Assembly (NCBI RefSeq): GCF_032854445.1
Contig: NC_088295.1
Location: forward strand, 8,436,501-8,500,500
Source of the DNA: Liolophura sinensis
Lineage: Eukaryota; Mollusca; Polyplacophora; Chitonida; Chitonidae
Reading direction: 5' to 3'
Length of the DNA: 64,000 bases
In this document: one piece after another, positions 2,969 to 63,709 of the stretch
How positions within the stretch are numbered: position 1 is the stretch's first letter
Layout: the number at the start of each line of letters is the position of its first letter
Made by a program: the position numbers and the translations under genes
The notes under the pieces: model-generated
What the model was told of the DNA's origin: nothing
What the model saw: only the letters and a program-made list of their open reading frames with translations
Databases searched by the model: none

Positions 2969-4429
2969 TTACATACACACACACAGTAAACACAGTGAAA
3001 TGAAATAACATCTATTTTTTGCACCTTGAACCAATATGATTGCAATGAGGAACTGTTGCCTTGTAGGAAATTTCTGAAGATTTCCCAGTAATGTTTGTCT
3101 TGTTTTGCAACCATTGCTTTCTCAATGCTCTAAATAGATATGTCAATGTTGGTAGTGAATAAGAAAGCTTTCAGTTTGCTGTAAAGAAGGTTTGTCAGAT
3201 CTGATGTCAGGTGTTATCACATATTTTCACAGTGTACATGCATCTTATACATGTATATCTCCGAAGTCTTGATGATGGATATATTCAAATACATGAAAAT
3301 ACTTACATGTGCACACAAATACCTTTTGTGCAGACAGATGTGTTCACTTTATGGGGTATTGCAGTACTTTCATGGGTTGACTAGGAACTGTAATCACGTT
3401 GTATGGGTTGTACTGGATGCTACCGATACCAAATAAATTTTTGCGGGATCCTTTGGAAAAATTCTACAGAAAATCCTATTTTGCAGAACTTTAACAGTCC
3501 AGCCTGGTTCTGTGAGGGCAAATTTCCAGTACATGTAGTTGCAGTAGTCTTAGCAGATTTTGACATGTGCGACCAGAGACAACTGAGTTAACTGCAGTTA
3601 TTTTCAGCTGTCAGTTTCGCAGTATTCTGGCAGTGTATGTCTGAGACTTAATTGTGGCTTTCGCAATATTCATGCTTCATGAGGATAGGGGAAAAAAGAA
3701 AGAAGGACATTGAAAAATTAATGTATCCATGAGAAATGCAGTACACATACATGGTAAAGCATGTTAAAAGATGCACAGAGCATACAGATACAGTGAAATG
3801 TATAGTGGATAGTTCTATGTGTGTAAAGTGTATATAATTTACACAAGGTGCTTGTACAGGCACCAGTTCATCCTGAACATGCAGTGTTCCCTCTCAGAAA
3901 CCTGCCCTGTTGTTTAGGCCAGACTCTGTCCATAGGGTTCCTCAGGCATGGTCCACATGGGTCCTGCACAGCTTAGGGGTGGGGACTGTGCATGCTTGTT
4001 GTCAGGATGTCATTGTTTCCTGCTTCTCGCTTATCAGGGGGTCACAGTTGTAAGTCCCAGCGACCTTGGCAGGAAATTCAGGTTACACTGAGTAATTATT
4101 GTCTCAGCTCAACCACAGTGTTTGTGCTATGAGTGACTGGTTGGGTTTATCCAGCAGGTTCCTCAAAACCTGAAATAATACAGCTGACTTATGTCCCAGT
4201 ACGACAGAGGTCTTCTCATGGCCATCTTACCCCACTACTTTGTACTGGAGATATTAGTTTATCTTTTAAAAATTAAACAAAATATTAAATTTTTTCACAA
4301 ACAGCAGTGAATGTTCTTTTGTTTCATAATCCTCTGGTTGGAATAGATTCATTGTCATAATTGTGACTGCACCACTGATGTTGACAGAATCAGACTCGTG
4401 TCAATACTGCATACAAGGGAACGTAGGAA

Positions 4430-4548
4430 GCTCTTGCAGCAACCAGCAGATGGTGGTGGGTTCCCCACGGGCTTTACCTGGTTTCCTCCTACCAAAAAGC
4501 TGGCGGCTTTGTCTAAGTGAAATGTTCTTTAGTACGGCATAAATTATT
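4430..4548 (+). mobile_element. Worn fragment of tRNA-derived SINE (family B)
   Basis: Contains recognisable pieces of the family B body in order: the GGTGGGTT region, CCTGGTTTCCTCCTACCA, a degraded CTGGCGGC, AAGTGAAATGTTCTT and AGTACGGCATAAA. It lacks the tRNA-like head and is much more diverged than the copies beyond 50 kb. Confidence 0.65.
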
Positions 4549-6206
4549 GCTTTTTGAAATCAAGCTTTATTGAGTCTTATTCCCAAGTTTAAATCCCCAC
4601 CTGTTATGGCATTCACAAGCAATCAAATAAAAATAAAATAGAATACATCCTTACCTCATTTAGTCAATAAGATGTTGGTTAATGAAAATTCTTGCAGTCT
4701 GATGGCCGATTGCTCATTGTATATCTCTGTATATGTTTATATAGAGTTAGTTATTAACATACCTGGATTGTCTATTTACCCTTATGCATGTGTGTGTTGC
4801 CAACACAGTACTGAGTTCCATTGATGGAGAGTGACTGTTGTCTCTGGCTTTTTCTGTGGTCTGAGATTGCTTTATATCAGTTTGTGCAGTGCTGTGGGAG
4901 CAGTGTAAATATTTAATTGTGGGTATTGATGCGAGTGTGGCCTGTTGTGTAAGTTTTACTTCTGTGTAACCCAGTGAGATGTAGTGTGAGTGACCAACAA
5001 GTTTGCTAACACAAGCAGATTTCTGCCTACTCTCCCTGCATATGTACGTGTTGATCTCCCCCTGATATGCGGCCATTAGGAGGAATATTGGCAACTTATC
5101 TCCCCTGGGTGGCCAGAAATGACCGATCGGCCAGAGAGAACAGACATGTTAAAAGCTGTCAGCCCCCAAGAGGGTCTTGATTTCTATAAAACATGCTTGT
5201 ATCGGAAACTCCAACTGTTTCAATTATTCATTACAGATAGGGTTGAATACAAGGACTCTATGATGAAACGTGCCTGTGCATTTTCATGCCTCACAAGCAG
5301 AGACAATTTATACGGCATACGTGTACTTTCAGCTCCAAGTGCTTCACGGCAGACTGCGCCTAAATGCAAATATGGCAATCCTCTTCTTTTTCCTTACTCA
5401 TTGCCAACAAAAGTCCAAATAAACAAAACACACGTATGCCACTCAATCTAAAATATGATTAAAACAGTCAATGAATGAAATACTCTTGGACATGGTGACT
5501 TTCAGTACAAGAAATCAAATGATCCTCCTCGATCTTTGCGGGTCATCCAGTTACACGTGACTCAAGGAGAATTTAATCAAACTGATATACAATTTCATTT
5601 TCATCTAAATGTATAGCTGCTAGTAAAAGCCATATTTTTAGATGATTATTTCTAGATGATTACTGGTCGTAACTGCAAAGTTAAATGTTGATAGATCACA
5701 GGCCAGTCTGACCACAGCTTTTTAAACTCAGCTGGCCCATCAAAATCGCAGTAGCCTTTGACCAGCAGACTAGTGTTAATTTCTAGCCCCAATGTACTTG
5801 TTTGATGTTCATTGTTATGAATGAGCAGTGGCAGTTGTAATTCTGCTGATGTTGTATCCAAGCCATCCCGGTACTGGACAAAGCCTCACGGCTTTACTGT
5901 TGTCAAATGTCAATAGGGAATATCCTGTTTATAACAGTACCAACAACAATTTCCTCATGAAGCACTCTGGGCCTGGGTAACCTCTTTTGTTGTCAGCTTG
6001 TCATCTGCCAGCATTGTGCACCACGGTGCAGGTTCATGCATCGCCGACACATCAATTATAAATTGGTAAAGGTTGTTAGATGAACAAAGATTGTCTATGC
6101 TTACTGTATGTGTATCTAAGGTACACTTTATGATGTACATGTACAATATGTGTGTCATGACTTACAACGTACATGGAAATCAGTGGAAGTAATCACTCTC
6201 ATCATT

Positions 6207-6250
<44 letters not shown>
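6207..6250. repeat. (TG)n(TA)n microsatellite
   Basis: A TG run passes directly into an uninterrupted TA run of about 30 bp. Confidence 0.95.
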
Positions 6251-6252
<2 letters not shown>

Positions 6253-6645
6253 TGCATTTCCATATTTACAGCATTTTAAAATGACATTAAACCATGATCA
6301 ATCAGTCTGTGAATCAGTCAAGGAATTGTTCTGGTGTACATGCAACATGATTTTGTGGCATTGGTTGCCCGATGATGACCAGACCATAGCATGTTGTAAA
6401 CGGCATGTGCCTCATTAAAGGGAGACTACTCTATCTGGATAAGTGAAGATGGAGTGTGGCATCTTTTCTCATATGATCTGTACTGGTAACTGTATGCATG
6501 TAGATTGCATGCATCCATCTCACTATAGAAAACAAATAATTTTTAGAAAAAATTGAAATTGTTTACAGAAATATGGATGACTTGTTTACAAAAAATATGG
6601 AGGACTTGTTTTATGTATGCATATGTGCTTGTAAACTTGCTCTTG

Positions 6646-6782: not shown

Positions 6783-9700
6783 GTGCTTGTTGTACAATCG
6801 CACCACGGAAGTAGTTGGGAAGGTGGAGAGGGGCATTGTTTGACAACTCCTTATTCTACCCAGACAATAGTTCGAAGAAAGTGATGCCATAATTTACCTG
6901 AAATAGATAACAAAATGCCAAAGGAATCTCTGATTACTTTCTTTTTTTTCTCTCATGGCAAACTGATTCGACTGTTAGCTGGAGATTTGTGGCAGATTGA
7001 TTGTTTTGCCATAGTGGGATGTATAGTTGGATAAAGGTGTGGCTAGACTGTGCACAGGTAATGGTATATTACCTGCAGTGAGGGGAGATGAAGGTCAGTA
7101 TCAGTCATTTACCATCAGGCCTTCTGGTGAGGGATCACTAATACCCCCTGCCGAGGAGAACACCAGGAGCATAGGGCTGAGGTAAGGTTGTAAACTTGTC
7201 ACAAATCCTTTTTCCCCTTAGGTAAACATTGGCTAGGCTTGGCATGCACAAATATAGAAACTCTGTGTTGGAGGCTGCCAAGTAGAGGGCTATTTTCTGT
7301 GTCACGTCTCTGTCAATATCTGGCTTATGTGACACTGAATCTGCAGCCCTGAGTCAGGTCTGAGGAATGACCCTTCTTCCCAGCTGCTGGCAGGGTCTGT
7401 GTGCTGGAATTCTCTTGGTGCAGTGGGTCTGCATGCAATAGGCTGGGTTGTCATTCAGTGTAAGACAGGTGACAAGTGAGGCCATATATAAGAGGAATTT
7501 CGCTAAATGAGGAGCCCACTGAACTGACAAGGTGCTGAGGTGTTTTCAGAATGCATAAAGAGAAGCATACAGTTTATTGTATTGGTTAACTTCTCTGTGT
7601 TGAGGGTGTAGTTGTGAGGAGGAGTGTGGGTTATAGCTGGCCAAAGTTGTGGGGACTCTACCTGTGCCAGAGCAGTTATGTGTGTGATAGACCCCAGGTA
7701 ACCTCTCACCCATCAGCCACATCAGTGGGGATATACCTGTACCTGACAGTGAGAGGGATCTTTAAGCCACATACCTATTGGATTAATACCTGGAGTGCAC
7801 TGACCATCTGTCACAGTGTGAAGACTTGAGGACAGAAGGGCTTAACCTTGACACAGAGGTAAGAAGGCATTTAATGTGGTCTGATGTTAACCTGGTGAGA
7901 ACCAGCAATTGTTCACAGTTCACAGATCACAATAGAGAGGAGATCACAACATATACCCCAGCTGTCACAGTTACACAGCTACATGTACATGTAGACACAG
8001 GTAAATGTGATTTGTCATCTGATTGTGTACTACAGGGATTGTTTTTTATGGATTTGTTAGATTTGTTTTATCCTATCTGGAAAACTCATTGGTTCATTTT
8101 AGAATAGAGAAGATGTCTGTGCAATCATTTCAAAAGAGATCCTGGAATTCTGTGGAAAAAGGATTTTTTTTTTTGCTTAAATACAAAAGACTTGGTTTTA
8201 TGCTGGCTCACTTGCCTGTATTTTGAGTCTGAAGCATGAACAAGAAAGAGGGTTTGTTTTACCCATTGGGACTGATTTTTCATTTTAATTCAGGTACATG
8301 TATGCATATGTCAGGTAGAACTCTGACCCAATCCACAGAATGAAACGAAAAGTACATGTCATTGATATACATGATACAGTGTGTTAATGTCTGTACCCAT
8401 GTGTTGTATTTCAGGAAATTAGATACACACCCAAATACTTCCTAACTGACTATCAGTTTTTTTTTTATCTGGGGAGGGGTACTAACCATATATTTAGAAA
8501 TGAAAGAATAATGTGCACCTTGGTTTTGCACACCCTTTTCTATCTTATTTAGTAATACCCTGCTTCATGTAGTAAGGGCTGACTGTTGTGACCCAGAAAT
8601 CAGCAGGAGGGGCGTTGTGAGTTGTAACAGTGGCTTTGCCATTGCTACAGATAGATGGATTATGTGATTACATGGATTCTGGGTTAGTTGTGGGACTAAA
8701 TGCAGGCAGGTCAGAAGCAATTTAAAAGTGGTACCCTCATCAGTCGACTCTCCCAGCGCAAAAAAATCGTTTTACAGGGTGTTTATTCTTCACATGGAAC
8801 CATTGTAGTTTTATGTGCTTAACAGTCCATAGTGCACACGTGTGTGTGTGTAGGAGGCTTCATTTTGTTGGCCTTCACTTAAATTGTTTAGACTTTACTT
8901 CTGATTTATTTTATTGTTTTTTTTATTTTTTTTGATGAAAAGTGGTACGGCCATGACTCCACTGGCCATACTGCTTCCAACGCCACTGAAATGCCCTGTA
9001 CACTCTGTTGAGGACTGCAGCTGTGAGTGACTGTGCCAAGTACTGATATTATGCGTAGTAGCTGGTAATCAATCTCTTCAAAAATGTGCAGTGAATGAGC
9101 CATGAATATGAGCTATTACAAACATTACATAACTTGACCTAAAATGACCTACAATTTCACCCTTCTGAAAAAATGTGTTCTGATACCTTGTAGGGAAAAA
9201 CAAATTCTCTGATTTCTGTTTATTATTTTTATGTAATAAGTTGGTAGAACTAGCGATAATTGCTATCCACCTTAGATAATGGCCATAAAATAAATTACCC
9301 AAAAGTCTATAATTTCATGAAATTTTCAGCGACTTATCACCTTGATGTATTAAAGTGGAAGATTACATAAAATTACTGTACATGTATTTCAGCCAAAGTT
9401 TCTCTTTGTTGTATCATACATGTTATAGCATAGAATACTGATAATTGGCCAAATTGCCAGGGCCATTTAAGGGTAAGAAGCATATATGTTGAAATTCTGA
9501 AGTGTCATTTTTTATTCATCTAAATTGAAAATAAAATGCACGTTTACTGACATAGAGATAACAACAACAACATAATCTTCCATGAAACGTGTGAACACTT
9601 ACCTGGTCCATTTTCTGCCAACATGTTTGCATGCTTTTTATTGTTATGACTGACCTACGGCACCTTATCATGGGCAAAAAAAATTGCAACCTGTCAAAGG

Positions 9701-10933
9701 CGTACATTTGTTTTTAAGACGGGCTAAAGTCTGCCACCTTCTGAAGTTCCATCCGGGAAACAGCCAGTTAAACAGTCTTAGAATTGTATTTATTGGAGTG
9801 GCTTCTACCTTACTTGTAGATCAATGAATGCATAATTTGTGGGCCACGGGAGAGAGCCTAGCTTTTGTCAGTTTTGTAGTTCATGTACATCTAGATCCAT
9901 GTGTCTGTTAAGGAAGTTCAGATTCCAGAGAAAGTATGTGAATATCTGCTAGGCTACAGATGGGCAGAGTGCCTCTGTGTTAGCAGATTTGTCTGTCCTG
10001 AGTTAACCTCACACCCCTACCCCTCATCCCCTGACCTTTACCTCAGCTCCTGTGCAAATAGGCTGTGTCCCTGACTTGCCTTCTATTAGCTGATTGAGTC
10101 GATGACTCCTCCAGGATGTGAATATGTGTGTATTGTACATGTAGGTAATGCTGGTTGTTTGCCAGTGTATGAACCTGTACACTGTTACATGGACCTGTGG
10201 GATATGAACTCCAGTGTGTAATCTTCTAGAACACAAAGCTTTTCAGTACGGTACACCAACCCATATGTGTGGGATGTGTACATATGGGTTGGACAGGAAT
10301 AAATGTCAGACTGACTTCACATGGCAGAAGTATATGCTTTAATGATAAACTTTGTATCAGAAAGCTGTTCTTTGGGGATGTCCTGTAAATTGTAATTTGT
10401 ATAGAATATGAAGTTTGACTCAACTAAGATATCCTGCATATTTACACGTGTTTGTTAGGATGCTATTGCTCAGGGGGCACAACTCCATGGTGGTTTGTTT
10501 AAGAATGACAGGAGTTGTCTGCTCAGTGTTATCACGAAACAACTGAATCTATATACATGTATGAACAAATACACTGATGTTAGAAAAAGAAATTGCAGTA
10601 TTTTTTACATGAACATGTAGTTAACGCAGAACACTTACCAGATGAAAATTTTAAACGTGTTTATGATTTTGTATATAGTATATCACATGAATTGCTTCTC
10701 AAGTTGATCATATTTGAACACAGTTCCCATTTCCACAGGCAATATTATGTATGTAATACATATATGTGTATATTCTGACTCAAACTGAGTGTATATGTAC
10801 CAGAAACTAACATGTAGATTTACAGGAGTAACGGCTGTCAAAATATGAATGGGAGTGTACACCCAGTAACCCAAACCAAACCACATGTACAGTAGTTTTA
10901 TGTAAAAAGCCCTCTCTAACAGAAGGTAAGAAG

Positions 10934-50985: not shown

Positions 50986-51192
50986 TGGCCTCCGCGGTCG
51001 CTGTGAGTTCGAGTCCAGCTCATGCTGGCTTCTTCTCTGGCCGTACGTGGGAAGGCCTGGCAATAACCTGCGGATGGTCGTGGATTTCCCCCGGGCTCTG
51101 CCCGGTTTCCTCCCACCACAATGTTGGCCGCCGTCGTATATGTGAAATATTCTTGAGTACGGCGTAAAACACCAATCAAATAAATAAATAAA
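50986..51192 (+). mobile_element. Family B SINE with internal head deletion, TSD intact
   Basis: Flanked by the perfect 15-bp direct repeat TTAGTATAACATTTG (50971-50985 and 51193-51207). Reads GGCCTCCG, then directly CGGTCGCTGTGAGTTCGAGT (B box), the body with CCCGGTTTCCTCCCACCA, GAGTACGGCGTAAAACACCA and an AAATAAATAAAT tail. Compared with the copy at 51406-51673, about 58 bp including the A box is missing. Confidence 0.92.
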
Positions 51193-51405: not shown

Positions 51406-51673
51406 TATTTATGTATTTATTTGATTGGTGCTTTACGCCGTGCTCAAGAATATTTCACTTATACGACGGCAGCCAGCATTATGGTGGGTGGAAACCGGGC
51501 ACAGCCGGGGGAAACCCACGACCATGCGCAGGTTGCTGACAGACCTTCCCACATACGGGCGGAGAGAAAGCCAGCATGAGCTGGACTTGAACTCACAGCG
51601 ACCGCATTGGTGAGAGACTCCTGGGTCATTACGCTGCGCTAGCGCGCTAACCAACTGAGCCACGGAGGCCCCC
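51406..51673 (-). mobile_element. Full-length tRNA-derived SINE (family B)
   Basis: Flanked by the 11-bp direct repeat ATCTATGTATT (51395-51405 and 51674-51684). Read on the minus strand: a head with A box TGGCTCAGTTGG, B box GAGTTCAAGTCC, a body of about 170 bp, GCACCAATCAAATAAATA and a long TTTA-type tail (as seen on +). This is the classic plan of a tRNA-headed, LINE-mobilised SINE. The short open frames on both strands within it are not genes. Confidence 0.93.
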
Positions 51674-52764: not shown

Positions 52765-55700
52765 GTAAGCTTTTAATTAATGTTTGGCTTCTCCAAAAGC
52801 TTTGTATGTTAAATTTATAAAATGTAGGCTACTCTATCGCACATTGACATCATTTCGACAATGAAATGGAACAGTACTTTACAAAAATTATGGACAAAAT
52901 CACGTCTAAAAGCTACTAAATGCTCTCGCTGGTACACTATGGTTTCTAATGGGACTTGACACTTTCAACAGGATGTAGGTCGAGGGTTTTCTTTGCGCTC
53001 TGTCTGGTTTCCTTCAATCATAATGCTGGCCGCCGTCGTATATTTATTTATGTGATCAGAGGTTTACTCGGTTCTCATAAATATTTCACTTATACGAGGG
53101 CGGCCAGTATTATGGTTGGAGGAAGCCGAGTAGAAACCCAAGACCGTCCGCATGCTGCTCACAGACCTTCTGACGTACTTCGAAAGAGGAAGCCAGTCGC
53201 CGTCATAAAAGTGAAATATTCTTGAATACGGCGTAAACTTCCCATCAAATAAGTAAATAAATACAACAGGATGCACCGCGTAGGCAGAATTGTATCGATA
53301 CACGCCTGTCGCGACGAGGGTTTAAACCTCTGAGTAGTGTTGTATATCAGCTCGGCCAGTGCTGCTGCATGACTGAATACATATTAGCCAGTTACTGGTC
53401 CTGTAGACGTCAGCCTTTTACTGCTACATGTCGTCATCGGCCGATTACCGGCTTGTGTAGACATCGTCCTGTTACTGGAACACGTAGACATCCATCAGTC
53501 GGTTACTGGTGCATGTAGACATCATGTGGTTACTAGTACATCTAGACATCTATTGGCACGTGTGGACATCGATCGATTACTGGCACGTGTAGACATCAGC
53601 CGATTACTCGCACATGTCGACATCGGCCGATTATCGGTACTTGTAGACATCGGTCTATTACTGGGACATGTATACTTGTGTTTCGAGTTTATAGTTTTTC
53701 TATAATACACCGTAAAATAACCTGCCCAAGGATTAGAGAGGTTCCTCGTCGTTATATATCAGTTGTTCAACAGGTATTTCGTGTCAACAATAAATGTTAG
53801 TAACAAATCCCAAATCAATACCACCCCACATTAAGTTTTAAACATCAGACTCACAGTATGGTACTTTTTTCGTTGCAGGCACCATTCCTGGTTGGCGATT
53901 CCAGGTCAGGTAACGGATAACATAGGCTTATACATGTATAGTTAGTTTAAGAATATTTATGTGAATTACAAAAGAAAGTGATGCTCACTCAACACAAACG
54001 TTTTGTAACATGTAGCCTACACCTGACGACAATCATCAGAAATTATGGACGTGAAAATTAATTCATCATAGTTTGATAACAGCGGTATACAAACGAACAT
54101 GTGTCATACAACTCTTACCAGTACATAGACACGTTACTCCTCTACTCCGATCTCATCTCACGCCATCAATCGGTGCACACCATAGCGTGATCATATTATA
54201 GTTAGAGAAGCCTGCCACAATCACAGATAACAACGTCAAAATCAGTGATCACAACAGTGAGGTCATATTGCAGTCAGGGTAGTCTACCTTAATCACATAT
54301 CACACCATCTGCCGGTGGTCATGATAGTGTGGTTGTATTACAGTCAGAGTAGTCTACCCTAATCACATATCACACCATCAACCGGTGCTCACCATCGTGT
54401 GGTCATATTACAGTCAGAGTAGTCTACCCTAATCACATATCACACCATCAACCGGTGCTCACCATCGTGTGGTCATGTTACAGTGAGAGCAGTCTACCCC
54501 AGTCACATATCACACCATCAACCAATGCTCACCATAGCGTACCCATATTACAGTCAGGGTAGACTGCCCTAATCACATATCACACCATCAACCGGTGCTC
54601 ACCATTGTGTAGTCATATTACAGTGAGAGTAGTCTACCCTAATCACATATCAAACCATCAACCGGTGCTCACCATCTTGTGGTTATGTTACAGCCAGAGC
54701 AGACTACCCTAATCACATATCACACCATCAACCGGTGCTCACCATCGTGTGGTCATATTACACTCAGAGCAGTCTACCCTAATTACACATCATACCATCA
54801 ATTTTACTTGACTAACCTCCCTTGACCTTATTTCATATCATAAAGCGGTGCGCAACAACCCACGGCCTTGAGTGAATTCCTGCACCAAGTGCACGTCTTA
54901 CTGTGAACCGGTTCTCAGAAATGCACTGCTTTTATTGCACTAGTTTGCCATAATCTTATTTCACATCATGGACCGGTACGCAACAACCGATTGCCACATC
55001 ATGGACCGGTACGCAACAACCAATGACCACATCATGGACCGGTACGCAACAACCGATGGCCACATTACTTGACTGTCTTTAATATCATCATTCATTCCAT
55101 TTCATGAACCGGCACGGGTCGCCGTCGTATAAGTAAAATATTCTTGAGTACGGCGTAAAACACCAATAAATAAATAAATAAATGAACCGTTACGTATAGT
55201 ACTACACCACTGGAATAAAAGTAACCAAATCGCATTGCATTCCTTCGTTGCTCGCATGTACGGCGTTTATGCATAATAACTGGAGAAACCGGTGCATCTC
55301 TATGCCCAATGACCATTGTCTTTAATGGTTGGTGACGTAACATTGAGATGTAAAACGAAAATTTGCCTTTCTTGATGGATATTTACATATATAGTGTCGA
55401 AGAGAAAATTTTATGGCCATTAAGGTACTGACACGTATACAGGTAAGTATTTATATCATAGCGGTGTCTCCATCATGACAATTTATATAAATACAAAGTA
55501 TGGGTAAGAGAACCGTTTACCTATCACGCACTTAGCCGATAAATCTGGAAACACAAATCCTTGCTATGACAACCGAATGCCTATCTATAGACCGTTGAGG
55601 TAGGAGACATAAAGCACTAGTATGAGCACAGACGTGTTCCCAACAAGAATGTGACTATTACGACAGTCATTACATTACGGTTTTTTTCCATCCCTTGAAA

Positions 55701-58700
55701 CTTTATCATCTTTAGTCTTACGCAAATTATTTGTGATTCTGGATACATTCAACAATGTATAACATTTTCGTAGTAAAACGAGCTTCCTGATCAGTTAAGC
55801 TGCATGAGCTTCATCAAAGGCATTGGTTCATTTCACTTTCCATTTACCAGAAGCTTAACAATGAAAATGAATGAATCAGAGAAAGGATGCCTTTTAGGTC
55901 CGTACGTTTCAAGAGTAAGGCTGGTTGACGGAGAGGGGCCATGGCAGGGACGCCTGGAGGTGTACTCTCAAGGACAGTGGGGGGCAGTCTGTGACACGAA
56001 CTGGGACGATTCGGATGCTCGTGTTGTCTGTACGATGTTACGGTACAGGTAAGCCAATCACAAACATAAAAGATAGAATCTCACTTTGTGTATGTAATTT
56101 GCTGGGCTAGTGTACGTGTAGATTAGTAGACCTACTAATAAATGCCAGCAATAATCCTCATCTGCCCACTTTGAAATAATAAGAAGTAGTCAAACCAAGT
56201 GTAATATTTTCCCGTATCTATCCCAAAAGCAATTAAAGCGTCTTCCACACGCTGCATTTCGACTCAATGAGGTATTCATGTTGACAGCCCAGAGCATGCC
56301 AAGGGCCACCCGTCTTCGATGTTCGGAACCAGCCTTGGGTTGCCGTTCCTGTTGGGAGACGTGAGTTGCACTGGTAATGAACAGAGCCTGTCACAGTGCC
56401 GACTTACCTCCCCTGTCTCTGGCAACTGCAGATACAGAGATGTCGGCGTGGACTGCTTTCACCCGGGCTACATGAGTGGCTATCAAACAACAGGTCAGAG
56501 ATAGCCCCGCCTTCTCTCCTCGATATCTGTTTGCTTGTTTCTTTCTTTTTTGTTTGTTTTTTTCAAAAGCGTTTTATTACATTATTAACGGTTTCCTGAA
56601 ATTTATATGCATACACGAGATATTATGTCATTTAAAACACATTTAAATTAACCTTTTCAATTTAGGCCTATATCAAAAAATATTAGGATATGGAAAGGGA
56701 ATGATTTACCATACGGTACTGTCATATTTTCGGATGGTCTCGTGTTCAAACCCAGCTCAAGTTGGTTTATCTGGGCCATTTGGGTTTGTCTGGCAAAGGA
56801 TCTGGATCTTCCTCGGCCTATGCTGTCATGTTCCTCTCATAAACCCGAGTCATATAAGAGTCTTCAGTGTAAAACACAAGTGGGATAAATAAATAAATCA
56901 ATAAATCATGAAACTCGCGAGCTATAAAAACAAGCAAATAAATGAAATTATTTTACTCTTTCTGCACAGTGGACATGATGAAGACTACTTCAGACCCGGA
57001 AAGTAAGTCTTGTTGTGTTCTAAGTGTAATCTTTGCGCCAACTTCGGAAAGTAACGCTTGTCGTGTTCGTAGTATATCCGAAGTTCTGAGAGTAGGCTTT
57101 GTTGTATTCTATTATGTGTAGCTTATACTCCAAGTTCGGAAAGTAAGTCTTGTTGTATTCTAAGTGTAGCTTATATTTCAGGTCAGGGGAGTATGTCTTG
57201 TTGCCTTCTGAGTGTACAGGCCCACTTCAGGCCCAGAGAGTATGTGTTGTTGTGCTCTGAGTGTACAGGCCAACTCCTAGTTCATAAAGCAATGAAGTCT
57301 GGTGTTCTAAGTTCAAAAAGTAAGCCCTGTTGTGTTCCACGCGTATACTCCAAGTTCGAAAAGTACGCCTTGTTGTGTTCCACATGTACACTCCACGTTC
57401 GAATAGTAAGCCTTGTTGAGTTCCGAGTGTATACTACAAGTACAATTAGTAAGCCTTGTTGTGTTCCACGTGTATACTCCAGTTCGAAAAGTAAGCCTTG
57501 TTGTGTTCCACGCGTATATTCCAGTTCGAAAAGAAAGCCTTCTTGTGTTCCACGTGTATACTCCACTTCAAATAGTAAGCCTTGATGTGTTCCACGTGTA
57601 TACTCCAAGTTCGAAAAGTAAGCCCTGTTGTGTTCCACGTGTATATTCCAAGTTCGAAAAGTAAGCCTTGTTTCGTTCCATGTGTACACTCCAAGTTCGA
57701 AAAGTAAGCTTTGTTGTGTTCCACGTGTACATTCCAAGTTCGAAAAGTGTTGTGTTCCACGTTTATACTCCAAGTTCGAAAAGTAAGCCCTGTTGTGTTC
57801 CACGTGTATATTCCAAGTTCGAAAAGTAAGCCTTGTTTCGTTCCATGTGTACACTCCAAGTTCGAAAAGTAAGCTTTGTTGTGTTCCACATGTACATTCC
57901 AAGTTCGAAAAGTGTTGTGTTCCACGTTTATATTCCAAGTTCGAAAAGTAAGTCTTGTTGTGTTCCACGTGTATATTCCAAGTTCGAAAAGTAAGTCTTG
58001 TTGTGTTCCACGTGTATATTCCAAGTTCGAAAAGTAAGTCTTGTTGTGTGTAGGCTGTTTTGATGGATATCATGGCACCATGAACAGGCTACAGCTGTAT
58101 TCCTTACCTTTCACATTTGTACAATTGTATTTTCGAATACTGAATTGGAATACCGTGTACTACTTTAACAATATGTAACATTAAACTTAACCATACACTG
58201 TGTTTTCTCTAAATTTAATTTCTTATGCGGCATTTGCTCTCACTGCCAATCAGTAGGGCCTGTCGCATATTTGCATGTTGTAGGGAAAGGCCAAAGTATA
58301 AAAGAATGTAACACTTGATAACACATATATCTGATGTTCTCGTCATACTATCAGTACATTAAAATTATCTTGTGGATAATATATATGCCCAGCCCCTTTC
58401 ACAGCACATGATACATCGCTTCATAATTTTTATTACCACCATAATAAAGTCTCATTACTGCAGCGCCTCAGTGTTTTCTTAGCACTATAGTAGGGTAGTA
58501 TTTTTGTCATAAGCAGCATTGCAGTTGCATTACTGTATCATTTCACAGCTTCGCATAATAGAGCCATGGCCAGGTGTATGGTGCACTCGACCGTATGGTA
58601 CAATAACGGCTACACTTGAATTCCTCGTTATAATTCATCTAATTGTTCTGTCTAATTAGGACAACTCGCCAGTGCCATGTCCGTCACTTGTGATGATCGG

Positions 58701-61700
58701 GCCTTCAATGTGACAGTGGACACACGGATGTTGGATGTTGGCACCAGTAGGGCAGGTCGTTACAACCATATCACTCTGGGTACCAGTGCCTGCACTGGTC
58801 ACATGGAAGGGGATCTCCTTGTCATACATGCTTTAATCGCAAAATGTATTCCTGTGGTCCAGGTTAGTCATTGTTACCTTGTGATAATTGCCATGATGGA
58901 TAAGGGAGCGGCTGGTGACCGCGTGTTCAAGGTGCTTACTTTCAATCAGTCAGTCATGTAATTTTTAGTGGAAAAGCCACATGGGTTACACTGTCAAACA
59001 CTTTCTAATGTGTCCTAGCATAATTTGCTCCGCCTCGGGTACCTTGTCTAAAATGAACTCTTTTGCGTTGAAAAAGACTCTGGGATGAAAATAGTGTGAA
59101 AACTTTTGGGAACAATGATGTTCCGGTAATGCAAAAATGCGAGTTTTTCACAACTACCACTGACAGTTGTGGATACAGATGTTTGCTTTATGCTTCTTAT
59201 GCGACTACGACACCTTAGAAATCTTTTCACGCTGTAACTTTCGTGGCTGTTCCACTTGAATAAGAGTTACATATTTATAACTATCATTAGAAACAAGAGT
59301 TCAATCCCATTATCGGAAAGGTAATTCTCAAGATTCCCATGTTTCTGTTGCTCCCCTGAGGCTGTCGTGACATGCAGCGTTCAACGACACTCTCGTGTGT
59401 GTTCTTACCAGGGGTGCCCTAGAGACCGCTCACAGGCTTTTCACCAATTAATATGCATGATCTATATTGCACACGTGGAGCTCCTCAGTGTCTTGCCAAA
59501 GGCTGGTGGTTTACTCTGGGCACTCCTGTTTCCTCCACAGCTACATGTAGCAGAGAACGATAGCTATTGGATTCAACCATTTTATATATGTATGTTTTTT
59601 TTTATCTTGCACAAACCCCATATGTACTTTGCCTTTGGTGAATTTTACAAACAGTCCTTTTTGCTTCTTGCAGCCACCTTGATGCCTTGAATTGTTAGTT
59701 TCGTATTCTCTTTTCATTGGATTTTATTGTGACGACTTTTCCCGTAATGTTATGTACAGGAAACCTCAACAATGGTCTACTACAGTGGAAAACTCCGTAT
59801 TTATCACAAAGAGGAGAGTGGCATAACGAGAGACCACGTGACGGAAGTGGAGGTGGAATGTACCCTTCACAGAGAGCTGACCATCAATGGTAGTTACGTC
59901 ATCAAAGAAGGGATGAAACCCCGTATAATACAAGCACAAGCAGAATTCAACACCACTATGGAGTTTTACCAAGACAAGTTCTTCTACCGCCGTATCACCG
60001 GCTGGCCGCATGCTGTTGGCTTAGACCAGATCGTGTATGTACAGTTATCTATTGATTCCGCGGACCCCAACCTCAGCCTGACCGTGGAGTCCTGCGACGC
60101 CCACGACAAGACGAATACCCAGTCCTACCAACTCATCGAGGATAGGTATAATTCCTATTCATGACTTAATGGTGTGCCATTAACATACAAATCTGTTATA
60201 TGGGGATACACATATAACATACAAATCTGTTATATGGGTATATATATATATATATATAACATACAAATCTGTTATATGGGGATACATATATGCCTGGTGT
60301 TTTCATTCATTTACATACATGTAGTTGGTATCCCCGTGCATACGAATGATGACCGCAGATACACTGCCGCTGTCCTATTCACAGGTCTGCCAACTATACA
60401 TGCTACGTGTATGTATAAGCAAGGCTGTTGTCGCCCTTTGGGGTATAGTGTGAGGGATTTTCTAGTTAGATAATTACATAATTACATGATATTGGCACAG
60501 CACTAAGAACGTGTTGCTGATCAACCAGTTTCTTATCAGTCCATAACGTAAGTGTAAACTATTGATATAGGCCTATGATACATGGGTTTTTGCTTATTTA
60601 TGGTGAAAACACAAACTACCGTTGTAACAATTTATGGAATATGATTTATACCAATACGTCATACACGGGGTGTTTTTCCTTTGTATACACGTAGGTGTCC
60701 TGTCGACGAAACGACCACCATTCTCCCGTCTGGTAAAGATTTCGCACGTTTCAAGTTCTCGTCGTTTCAGTTCATCGGCGAGGCTCCTGAAGTCTACCTG
60801 GACTGTGACGTGATGGTGTGTGAGCCCCATGACCCGGCCCCAAACTGCCAGCAACGCTGGTGCAGTACTTGGGAAGGAAATGTCACCGTGGCCACCATGG
60901 CCACCATGGCCAAACGATCCAGACCTTCCTCAGAATACAAGAGACGATATTTTCACTTGACAGCAGGCCCGTTCCTCATCCCAGCTAAACATTCTGTCAA
61001 CAATACAAAGAGAGGCCATCAGAAAGGTAAACGTGCTACATCTATGTTAAATGTCAGTTCTACTTGATGTGATAGATTTGTACATGACTTACCGTTACTT
61101 TCAGTGTTATATTTCCATCACATATGATAAATAAACATTGGCTCACACGGATTCAGGATGCAAACACAACTATAATATTGCTCCGTCGCCCGAAGGTGAT
61201 GGGGCGATCATACGACTCCTAGTATTGGTCCATCGCCTTGCAGTGTCCATTCATAGGGCCTGTCGTTCCATCGCGCGACGACCCTAGCCGGCTTCCATAA
61301 GTTCGCGAAAGGCACATGATACAAGCAGGTGGGATGTAATACCATGAGGAACTGGATTCACCTGTATCAGGATGGCACAGGAAACAACAATTAGGACCTA
61401 CATCAGTGATACTTTTGTGGGTGTCACGTCAGGTGTCTTCGGCATGATACTTCACTGGCGCCCAACACATGTGTCTAATGAAGACACATTCTATGTACAA
61501 ACACGTAATGAGTCATATGAAAATTGTCAAGTTCGACGTAAAACCCCACGCACGCACGCAAGCAAGCACGCACACACGCAAACAAGCACGCACATATGGC
61601 CATTATCCATGCGCATTTATGGTTACAGGACTTCTACTAGACGTTGCTCCACCAAACAAGCCCGAAGAGAAATCCACAGAAGGGGTAAAGATCCCGCCTC

Positions 61701-63449: not shown

Positions 63450-63709
63450 CATTTATTTATTTATTTGATTGGTGTTTTATGCCGTACTCAAGAATATTTC
63501 ACTTATACGACGGAGGCCAGCATTATGGTGGGAGGAAACCGGGCAGAGCCCGGGGGAAACCCACGACCATCCGCAGGTTGCTGACAGACCTTCCCACGTA
63601 CGGCCGGAGAGGAAGCCAGCATGAGCTGGACTTGAACTCACAGCGACCGCATTGGTTCGAGACTCCAGGGTCATTGCGCTGCGCTATCGCGCTAACCGAC
63701 TGAGCCCCT
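63450..63709 (-). mobile_element. Full-length tRNA-derived SINE (family B)
   Basis: Flanked by the perfect 12-bp duplication ATGAATACATTT (63438-63449 and 63710-63721). On the minus strand: a head with an A-box-like GGCTCAGTCGGTTAGC, B box GAGTTCAAGTCC, the full body and an AAATAAATAAAT tail. Nearly identical to 51406-51673, so the family was recently active. Confidence 0.95.

Follow-up and report, generated by a model that had tools for sequence, protein, structure and literature searches.

The minisatellite of the human gene IFI6 (6-16/G1P3), reportedly described by Turri et al. in 1995, is said to supply several splice donors. In lancelets, minisatellite-like tandem repeats called mirages have units that reach across an exon-intron boundary, at the 5' or the 3' ends of exons, and have reportedly been found in Adh3, the globins BflGb6 and BflGb9, PGBD5 and troponin C (PMC3087553; PMC3902484). 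In Adh3 and the globins the units reportedly measure 10-160 bp, with the authentic boundary beside the cluster, and mirages are described as unstable in length (PMC3087553; PMC3902484). RT-PCR reportedly suggested normal splicing (PMC3087553). Tandem duplication of segments containing AGGT has moreover been reported as a route of intron gain in ATP2A1 and a potato RdRp (PMC4974935).

Here, we compare these systems with a tandem array in intron 5 of a gene of the chiton Liolophura sinensis. The window, i.e., the whole stretch of DNA analysed, comprises 64,000 nucleotides (C1:8436501-8500500); positions below refer to it unless a locus is named (Table 1). According to a Pfam search, the host gene product contains a Zona_pellucida (ZP; 8.4e-24) and an SRCR domain (1.1e-23), in the order signal peptide, SRCR, ZP and transmembrane segment, the first and last being assigned by inspection. 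The modelled exon 5 lies between the SRCR and ZP parts, and the frame is kept by its inclusion or skipping alike. We consider it probable that the array is a mirage seeded by duplication of the exon 5 junction and grown by minisatellite turnover, and that the ladder of donor sites in it is a passive by-product.

Table 1. Host gene and array features, with positions in the window.
Feature	Position	Strand	Basis
Host gene, 9 modelled exons, 522 aa	52708..61798	+	GT/AG borders, frame open throughout
Exon 4, end of SRCR domain, phase 1 at its end	56288..56493	+	exon model, Pfam
Exon 5 (modelled), 33 nt, VDMMKTTSDPE, in-frame cassette	56970..57002	+	exon model
Exonic part of first repeat unit, last 16 nt of exon 5	56987..57002	+	13/16 in register with 57240
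Exon 5's own donor GTAAGT, first in donor ladder	57003..57008	+	sequence, unit dissection
Tandem array, 24 donor-anchored units including exon 5's own, 63% of intron 5	57003..58050	+	TRF, dissection
Early diverged units at spacings of 41-51 bp; long, exon-like heads at 57191 and 57240	57051..57319	+	donor-anchored dissection
More homogeneous units, mostly 43 bp	57320..58050	+	TRF, dissection
Two adjacent 165-bp blocks, 164/165 identical	57603..57932	+	block comparison
Exon 6, start of ZP region	58660..58862	+	exon model, Pfam

Exon 5 ends in CCCGGAAA and is followed by the donor sequence GTAAGTCTTGTTGTGTTC (57003-57020). As the first-pass annotation had stated, this 18-mer recurs exactly, namely at 57948 and again at 57991; when three mismatches are allowed, the window contains 21 matches, which all lie on the + strand between 57003 and 58051, against an expectation of 0.10. 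The 43-bp array said to fill the next kilobase is likewise recovered by TRF, with a 43-bp core (57309-58049, period 43, 17.6 copies), 48-bp early units (57073-57216, period 48) and an end near 58050. Dissection anchored at the donors gives GTAAGC in 11 and GTAAGT in five of the 24 units, exon 5's own counted, which agrees with the earlier estimate of about sixteen; the minus strand of the array holds no GTAAG. An open frame of 268 aa runs across the array on the minus strand (57282-58088), which the 43-bp unit permits because it has no stops in that direction; it is probably meaningless.

Six diverged units, including exon 5's own, are followed by one degenerate unit and then by the more homogeneous ones. 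The early units end with a single spacing of 80 bp, inside which the degenerate unit (57284) is located. By inspection, the unit heads are longer and exon-like at 57003, 57191 and 57240 and have the shorter form AAGTTCGRAAA in most others. The pair of 165-bp blocks is a recent duplication within the array, in which a 7-bp deletion was copied as well; by this deletion the units at 57747 and 57912 have lost their donor. Identity between the exon-5 unit and the other units amounts to 46-77%, compared with the near-identity of these inner blocks; the authentic boundary forms the outermost unit and has been spared homogenisation, as in a mirage.

The repeat begins inside exon 5. When anchored at the donor, the last 16 nt of the exon match the 57240 unit at 13 positions, a value reached in any of the 23 units by 2 of 20,000 shuffles; the match is 11/16 at 57143 and 10/16 at six other units, and the maximum across the 4,330 GT sites of the rest of the window is 10. 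The first 17 nt of the exon are unlike the array (7/17; 13,082 of 20,000 shuffles as good), and so is the part of intron 4 beside exon 5 (980 of 1,000 shuffles as good). Unanchored similarity is slight, being equalled in 20 of 1,000 shuffles for the last 16 nt and in 63 of 1,000 for the whole 33 nt. Averaged ungapped over 21 copies, exonic identity is patchy (0.72 at -1 to -5, 0.24 at -6 to -10, 0.66 at -11 to -15 and 0.41 at -16 to -20) and lies below that of the carboxypeptidase and C12 myosin loci described below; the profile leaves out the P450 locus L123, whose motif matched only once. Provided that exon 5 is an exon, the units would thus span an exon end and an intron start, as mirage units do. 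The stretch at 57220-57239 has the sequence that the first-pass annotation gave for it (ACTTCAGGCCCAGAGA, with TGTACAG before and GTATGT after). The acceptor-like site before 57220 has a matrix score of 4.2, compared with 4.7 for the acceptor of exon 5, and is not copied from the latter, because the part of intron 4 that adjoins exon 5 has no similarity to the array.

Since the repeat begins within the exon, the donor register is kept and the same architecture recurs at other exons, which Pfam homology identifies clearly, the proposal that the exon 5/intron 5 junction was amplified is supported, and the array probably originated from such an amplified exon/5' splice-site junction. The seed would have been a tandem duplication of about 48 bp over this junction (16 nt of exon and about 32 nt of intron), followed by growth and partial homogenisation through ordinary minisatellite turnover. 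The outermost copy would still connect the intact exon to a donor, and the other donors would merely accompany the growth of the array; expansion might be tolerated because exon-proximal splicing would leave the mRNA unchanged. Like lancelet mirages, the chiton array has boundary-spanning units and the authentic boundary at its edge, here known from sequence alone, and it differs from the BflGb6 haplotypes with 3 and 6 units in having 24 units and a mollusc host. Hence, it probably represents a mirage, a kind of array already known, and its recurrence in a mollusc would be the newer point: among the matches listed in a search of the open-access literature (titles and abstract openings), no report of mollusc mirages appeared.

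Intron gain by AGGT duplication (PMC4974935) likewise reportedly duplicates a segment with splice signals in tandem. The chiton case differs in that an existing intron grows and in that the unit lacks AGGT, which occurs only once in 57003-58055. A transposon-borne or dispersed satellite was discarded as well, the array and its flanks being confined to a single locus as far as the searches reach: in the 609-Mb genome (609,464,459 bases, 632 contigs), 15 of 15 matches of a pattern search and 6 of 6 of a DNA search fall at this locus and none elsewhere, although a search without a match does not prove rarity. A dispersed repeat, possibly a SINE, with a tail ending in CTTGAGTACGGCGTAAAACACCAATCAAATAAATAAA occurs elsewhere in the window (50990-51190, 51410-51660, 55120-55190 and 63460-63700).

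The mirage interpretation depends on exon 5, which on its splice signals and phase is plausible as modelled. Its acceptor ranks second among the eight of the gene by matrix score, and it is in phase with both neighbouring exons. The 64 kb of the + strand contain three acceptor-donor pairs of 18-200 nt, exon 5 included, that are open, frame-keeping and as strong as exon 5, so that such a pair inside this 2.2-kb gap is uncommon. Both the rarity of these pairs and the fitting phases argue against a reading in which exon 5 is not an exon and an ordinary intronic minisatellite carries a donor-like GTAAG in its unit by chance. This reading draws on the junction of exon 4 to exon 6, which is in frame without exon 5, and on the abundance of minisatellites in the genome, and we judge it rather improbable. 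In a background sample of 130 kb, taken in pieces of 10 kb from thirteen round coordinates, minisatellites with periods of 12-200 account for 13.5% (39 arrays), compared with 4.2% of the window and 22.2% of the host gene. A strong donor-like site is present in at least 40% of the units, on one strand, in 6 of the 13 arrays of this sample that have at least 4 copies, three of the six belonging to the carboxypeptidase locus L014; by a stricter criterion, GTAAG (either strand) is part of the consensus in 3 of 16 sampled arrays with at least 3 copies. We infer that exon 5 is in use and that its first donor is the one used.

Two side observations concern minisatellites at other sites. Introns 1 and 2 of the host gene contain more of them, with units of 27, 70 and 33 bp (53456-55065). 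In random arrays at L008 (4335-6801) and L013 (3757-6056 and 9545-9998), strong donor-like sites occur on one strand at a rate of roughly one for each unit.

Other arrays of exon end plus 5' splice site were found in the same genome, namely two in one carboxypeptidase gene, two in myosins and one in a P450 gene. The carboxypeptidase locus L014 (G000:C10:12000001-12010000) has arrays at 351-1208, 2982-4447 and 8791-9944; 3 of 5 scanned reading frames match Peptidase_M14 (60.5, 42.6 and 22.0 bits; cut-off 21.6), a fourth matches a regulatory domain with 23.6 bits, below the Pfam cut-off of 32.3, and one has no match. An exon ending in LHGGIELVNYPLDYYVG, whose Pfam match reaches within a few residues of the exon end, is followed by a 64-bp x18 array of the exon end and GTGAGTGGAACA (GTGAGT). 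A second exon, ending in GHYKLQ and with a weaker match, is followed by an array on CTATAAACTACAG/GTAAGTTC, and the middle array has the unit type CTACAG/GTGAGTTC in common with the first. The myosin arrays are located at C12:686729 (66 bp x6.6) and C11:2675303 (32 bp x7.5), and that of the P450 gene (L123) has 57 bp x8.8, of which about 45 nt are exonic by inspection. As a 3' counterpart, a myosin at C2:5378501 (L075, G000:C2:5378051-5379103) has copies of the acceptor TTTGTAG/GTTTGAGCG preceding the exon; this array is a ladder of 3' splice sites.

In these other cases the exon next to the array codes for a piece of a conserved domain, which makes an exon that preceded its array the simpler reading there. 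By analogy, we infer that the exon would also have come before the array in the host gene. The opposite order appears unlikely. In it, a minisatellite would have formed in the intron beside an acceptor-like site, and its outermost unit would later have become exon 5 (exonisation). Against this order, the conserved-domain exons are more simply the source of their arrays, and the repeat includes neither the acceptor nor the first 17 nt of exon 5. In favour of this order, exon 5 is short and phase-symmetric and could be gained or lost without damage to the frame, and half of it lies inside the repeat. It would also resemble an intron-gain model reportedly given for the inner units of lancelet mirages (PMC3087553). 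Moreover, an equivalent of exon 5 was not identified in the SRCR-ZP paralog on C13 (L003). The SRCR-ZP intron of this paralog contains a 48-bp array that starts about 26 nt past the likely donor, which itself lies outside the array. The 48-bp unit bears an acceptor-like TGCATGTCAG, and in the same locus arrays at 3101-3575 and 5697-6290 are close to the exons for the second SRCR domain of this paralog, which is a minus-strand gene. A ZP gene on C9 (L004) had no match to SRCR and provides no information on the linker.

Decoy, splicing-delay and U1-sequestration functions of the donor ladder had been proposed in the first-pass annotation. Selection on the array donors was sought via column conservation and not found: the donor hexamer columns match the majority in 0.833 of units and the other columns in 0.824, and the hexamer is 25th in rank among 38 six-column windows, GTAAG 16th among 39 five-column windows. 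The 7-bp donor deletion was, as noted, copied within the array. Pairing with the U1 5' end, as computed, is weak for most copies. The usual GTAAGC copies (11 of 24 units) reach -4.5 kcal/mol, compared with -5.6 to -11.0 for the eight donors of the gene; the five AAA/GTAAGT units, including exon 5's own, reach -5.6, the 57092 unit -5.0 and the remaining seven -4.7 to -0.5. Exon 5's own donor ties for the weakest of the eight, because -5.6 is the limit of their range.

By a frequency matrix, AAA/GTAAGC scores 6.9 and AAA/GTAAGT 7.9, on par with several of the gene's eight donors (1.3 to 11.8), which would favour a functional ladder whose donors control inclusion, slow splicing down or retain U1 snRNP. 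The retention of GTAAGC or GTAAGT in two-thirds of the units would also favour it, as would the density of donor-like sites (score at least 6), which is about five times that of the rest of the window (13 sites, 12.3 per kb, compared with 2.54 per kb). Such a density is not unique within the window: the densest other stretch of 1,053 nt has 12 sites of this score, but only 3 GTAAG. If the second copy (57051) served as donor, exon 5 would gain 16 aa in frame, and besides exon 5's own donor only this copy keeps the frame without a stop; use of any copy from 57092 on would lead to a premature stop, i.e., at 22 of 24 positions. The human IFI6 minisatellite is related in that it also offers multiple donors, and two of its downstream units are reportedly used (PMC4526556), a use that would truncate the protein at nearly all chiton positions. 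Lancelet mirages, in turn, reportedly splice normally (PMC3087553; PMC3902484). Unexceptional donor columns, weak U1 pairing and these stops argue against the proposed roles. Thus, nothing points to a maintained function of the ladder, and we regard one as very improbable.

The frequency of junction arrays was surveyed in three families: M14, as L014 had shown M14 arrays, and myosin and P450, for their many exons. A junction was scored when its 20-mer occurred in at least 3 copies at 80% identity. The first survey covered 81 exons of M14 and myosin genes together with flanks of 450 nt. From M14, 40 of 51 rows were used (dropped were 9 with internal stops, 1 with an open frame >400 aa and 1 already in L014); from myosin, 45 of 81 rows were eligible and 41 used, leaving out C1:88562317, C1:67511740, C10:725635 and C8:33921014. 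P450 formed a second set, chosen afterwards (57 of 99 rows; no stops, open frame <400, match end before profile position 440). PF00501 was unusable, having mostly long uninterrupted frames. Exon ends were placed by matrix score near the end of the Pfam match, and some are not true splice sites; an acceptable donor was present at 70 of 81 and 51 of 57 exon ends and an acceptable acceptor at 79 of 81 starts.

TRF arrays are present in 31 of the 81 M14 and myosin exon regions. The 5' junction was repeated at 2 of 70 exon ends in the first survey (the two myosins above) and at 1 of 51 P450 ends (L123), which gives 3/121 or 2.5% (95% interval 0.5-7.1%) on the base of three gene families. Among the 40 M14 exons, including C10:11997973 and C10:11996014 of the L014 gene, no 5' junction reached 3 copies and one had 2. 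The 3' junction was repeated at 1 of 79 starts (myosin C2:5378501). The exon 5 locus itself has 1 copy under this rule, because its units have decayed, and decayed cases are therefore under-counted. Intron windows at +30, +60 and +100 were repeated in 4, 5 and 6 of 70 cases in the first survey, compared with 2 of 70 junctions, and in 1, 1 and 1 of 51 in the second, compared with 1 of 51 junctions, all four being L123. Exon interiors on the 5'-junction side had at least 3 copies in 0 of 121. Since intron windows repeat as often as junctions or oftener, junctions are no hotspot of array birth; where arrays end up seems to depend on tolerance.

On balance, we lean towards the view that minisatellites at exon boundaries occur throughout the chiton genome, with arrays of their own tandem copies at a few per cent of the 5' splice sites and also at some of the 3' ones. 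If so, the chiton spliceosome must routinely single out the exon-proximal site from many nearly identical copies, and gene predictors in such genomes face many near-perfect false splice sites. A single array would be a curiosity, whereas several in one genome provide natural series of tandem splice sites, with about 6 to 24 nearly identical ones each, that could test the exon-proximal choice of the spliceosome and the lengthening of introns. In that case, mirages would not be peculiar to lancelets; they would arise repeatedly in minisatellite-rich animal genomes and be a route of intron growth.
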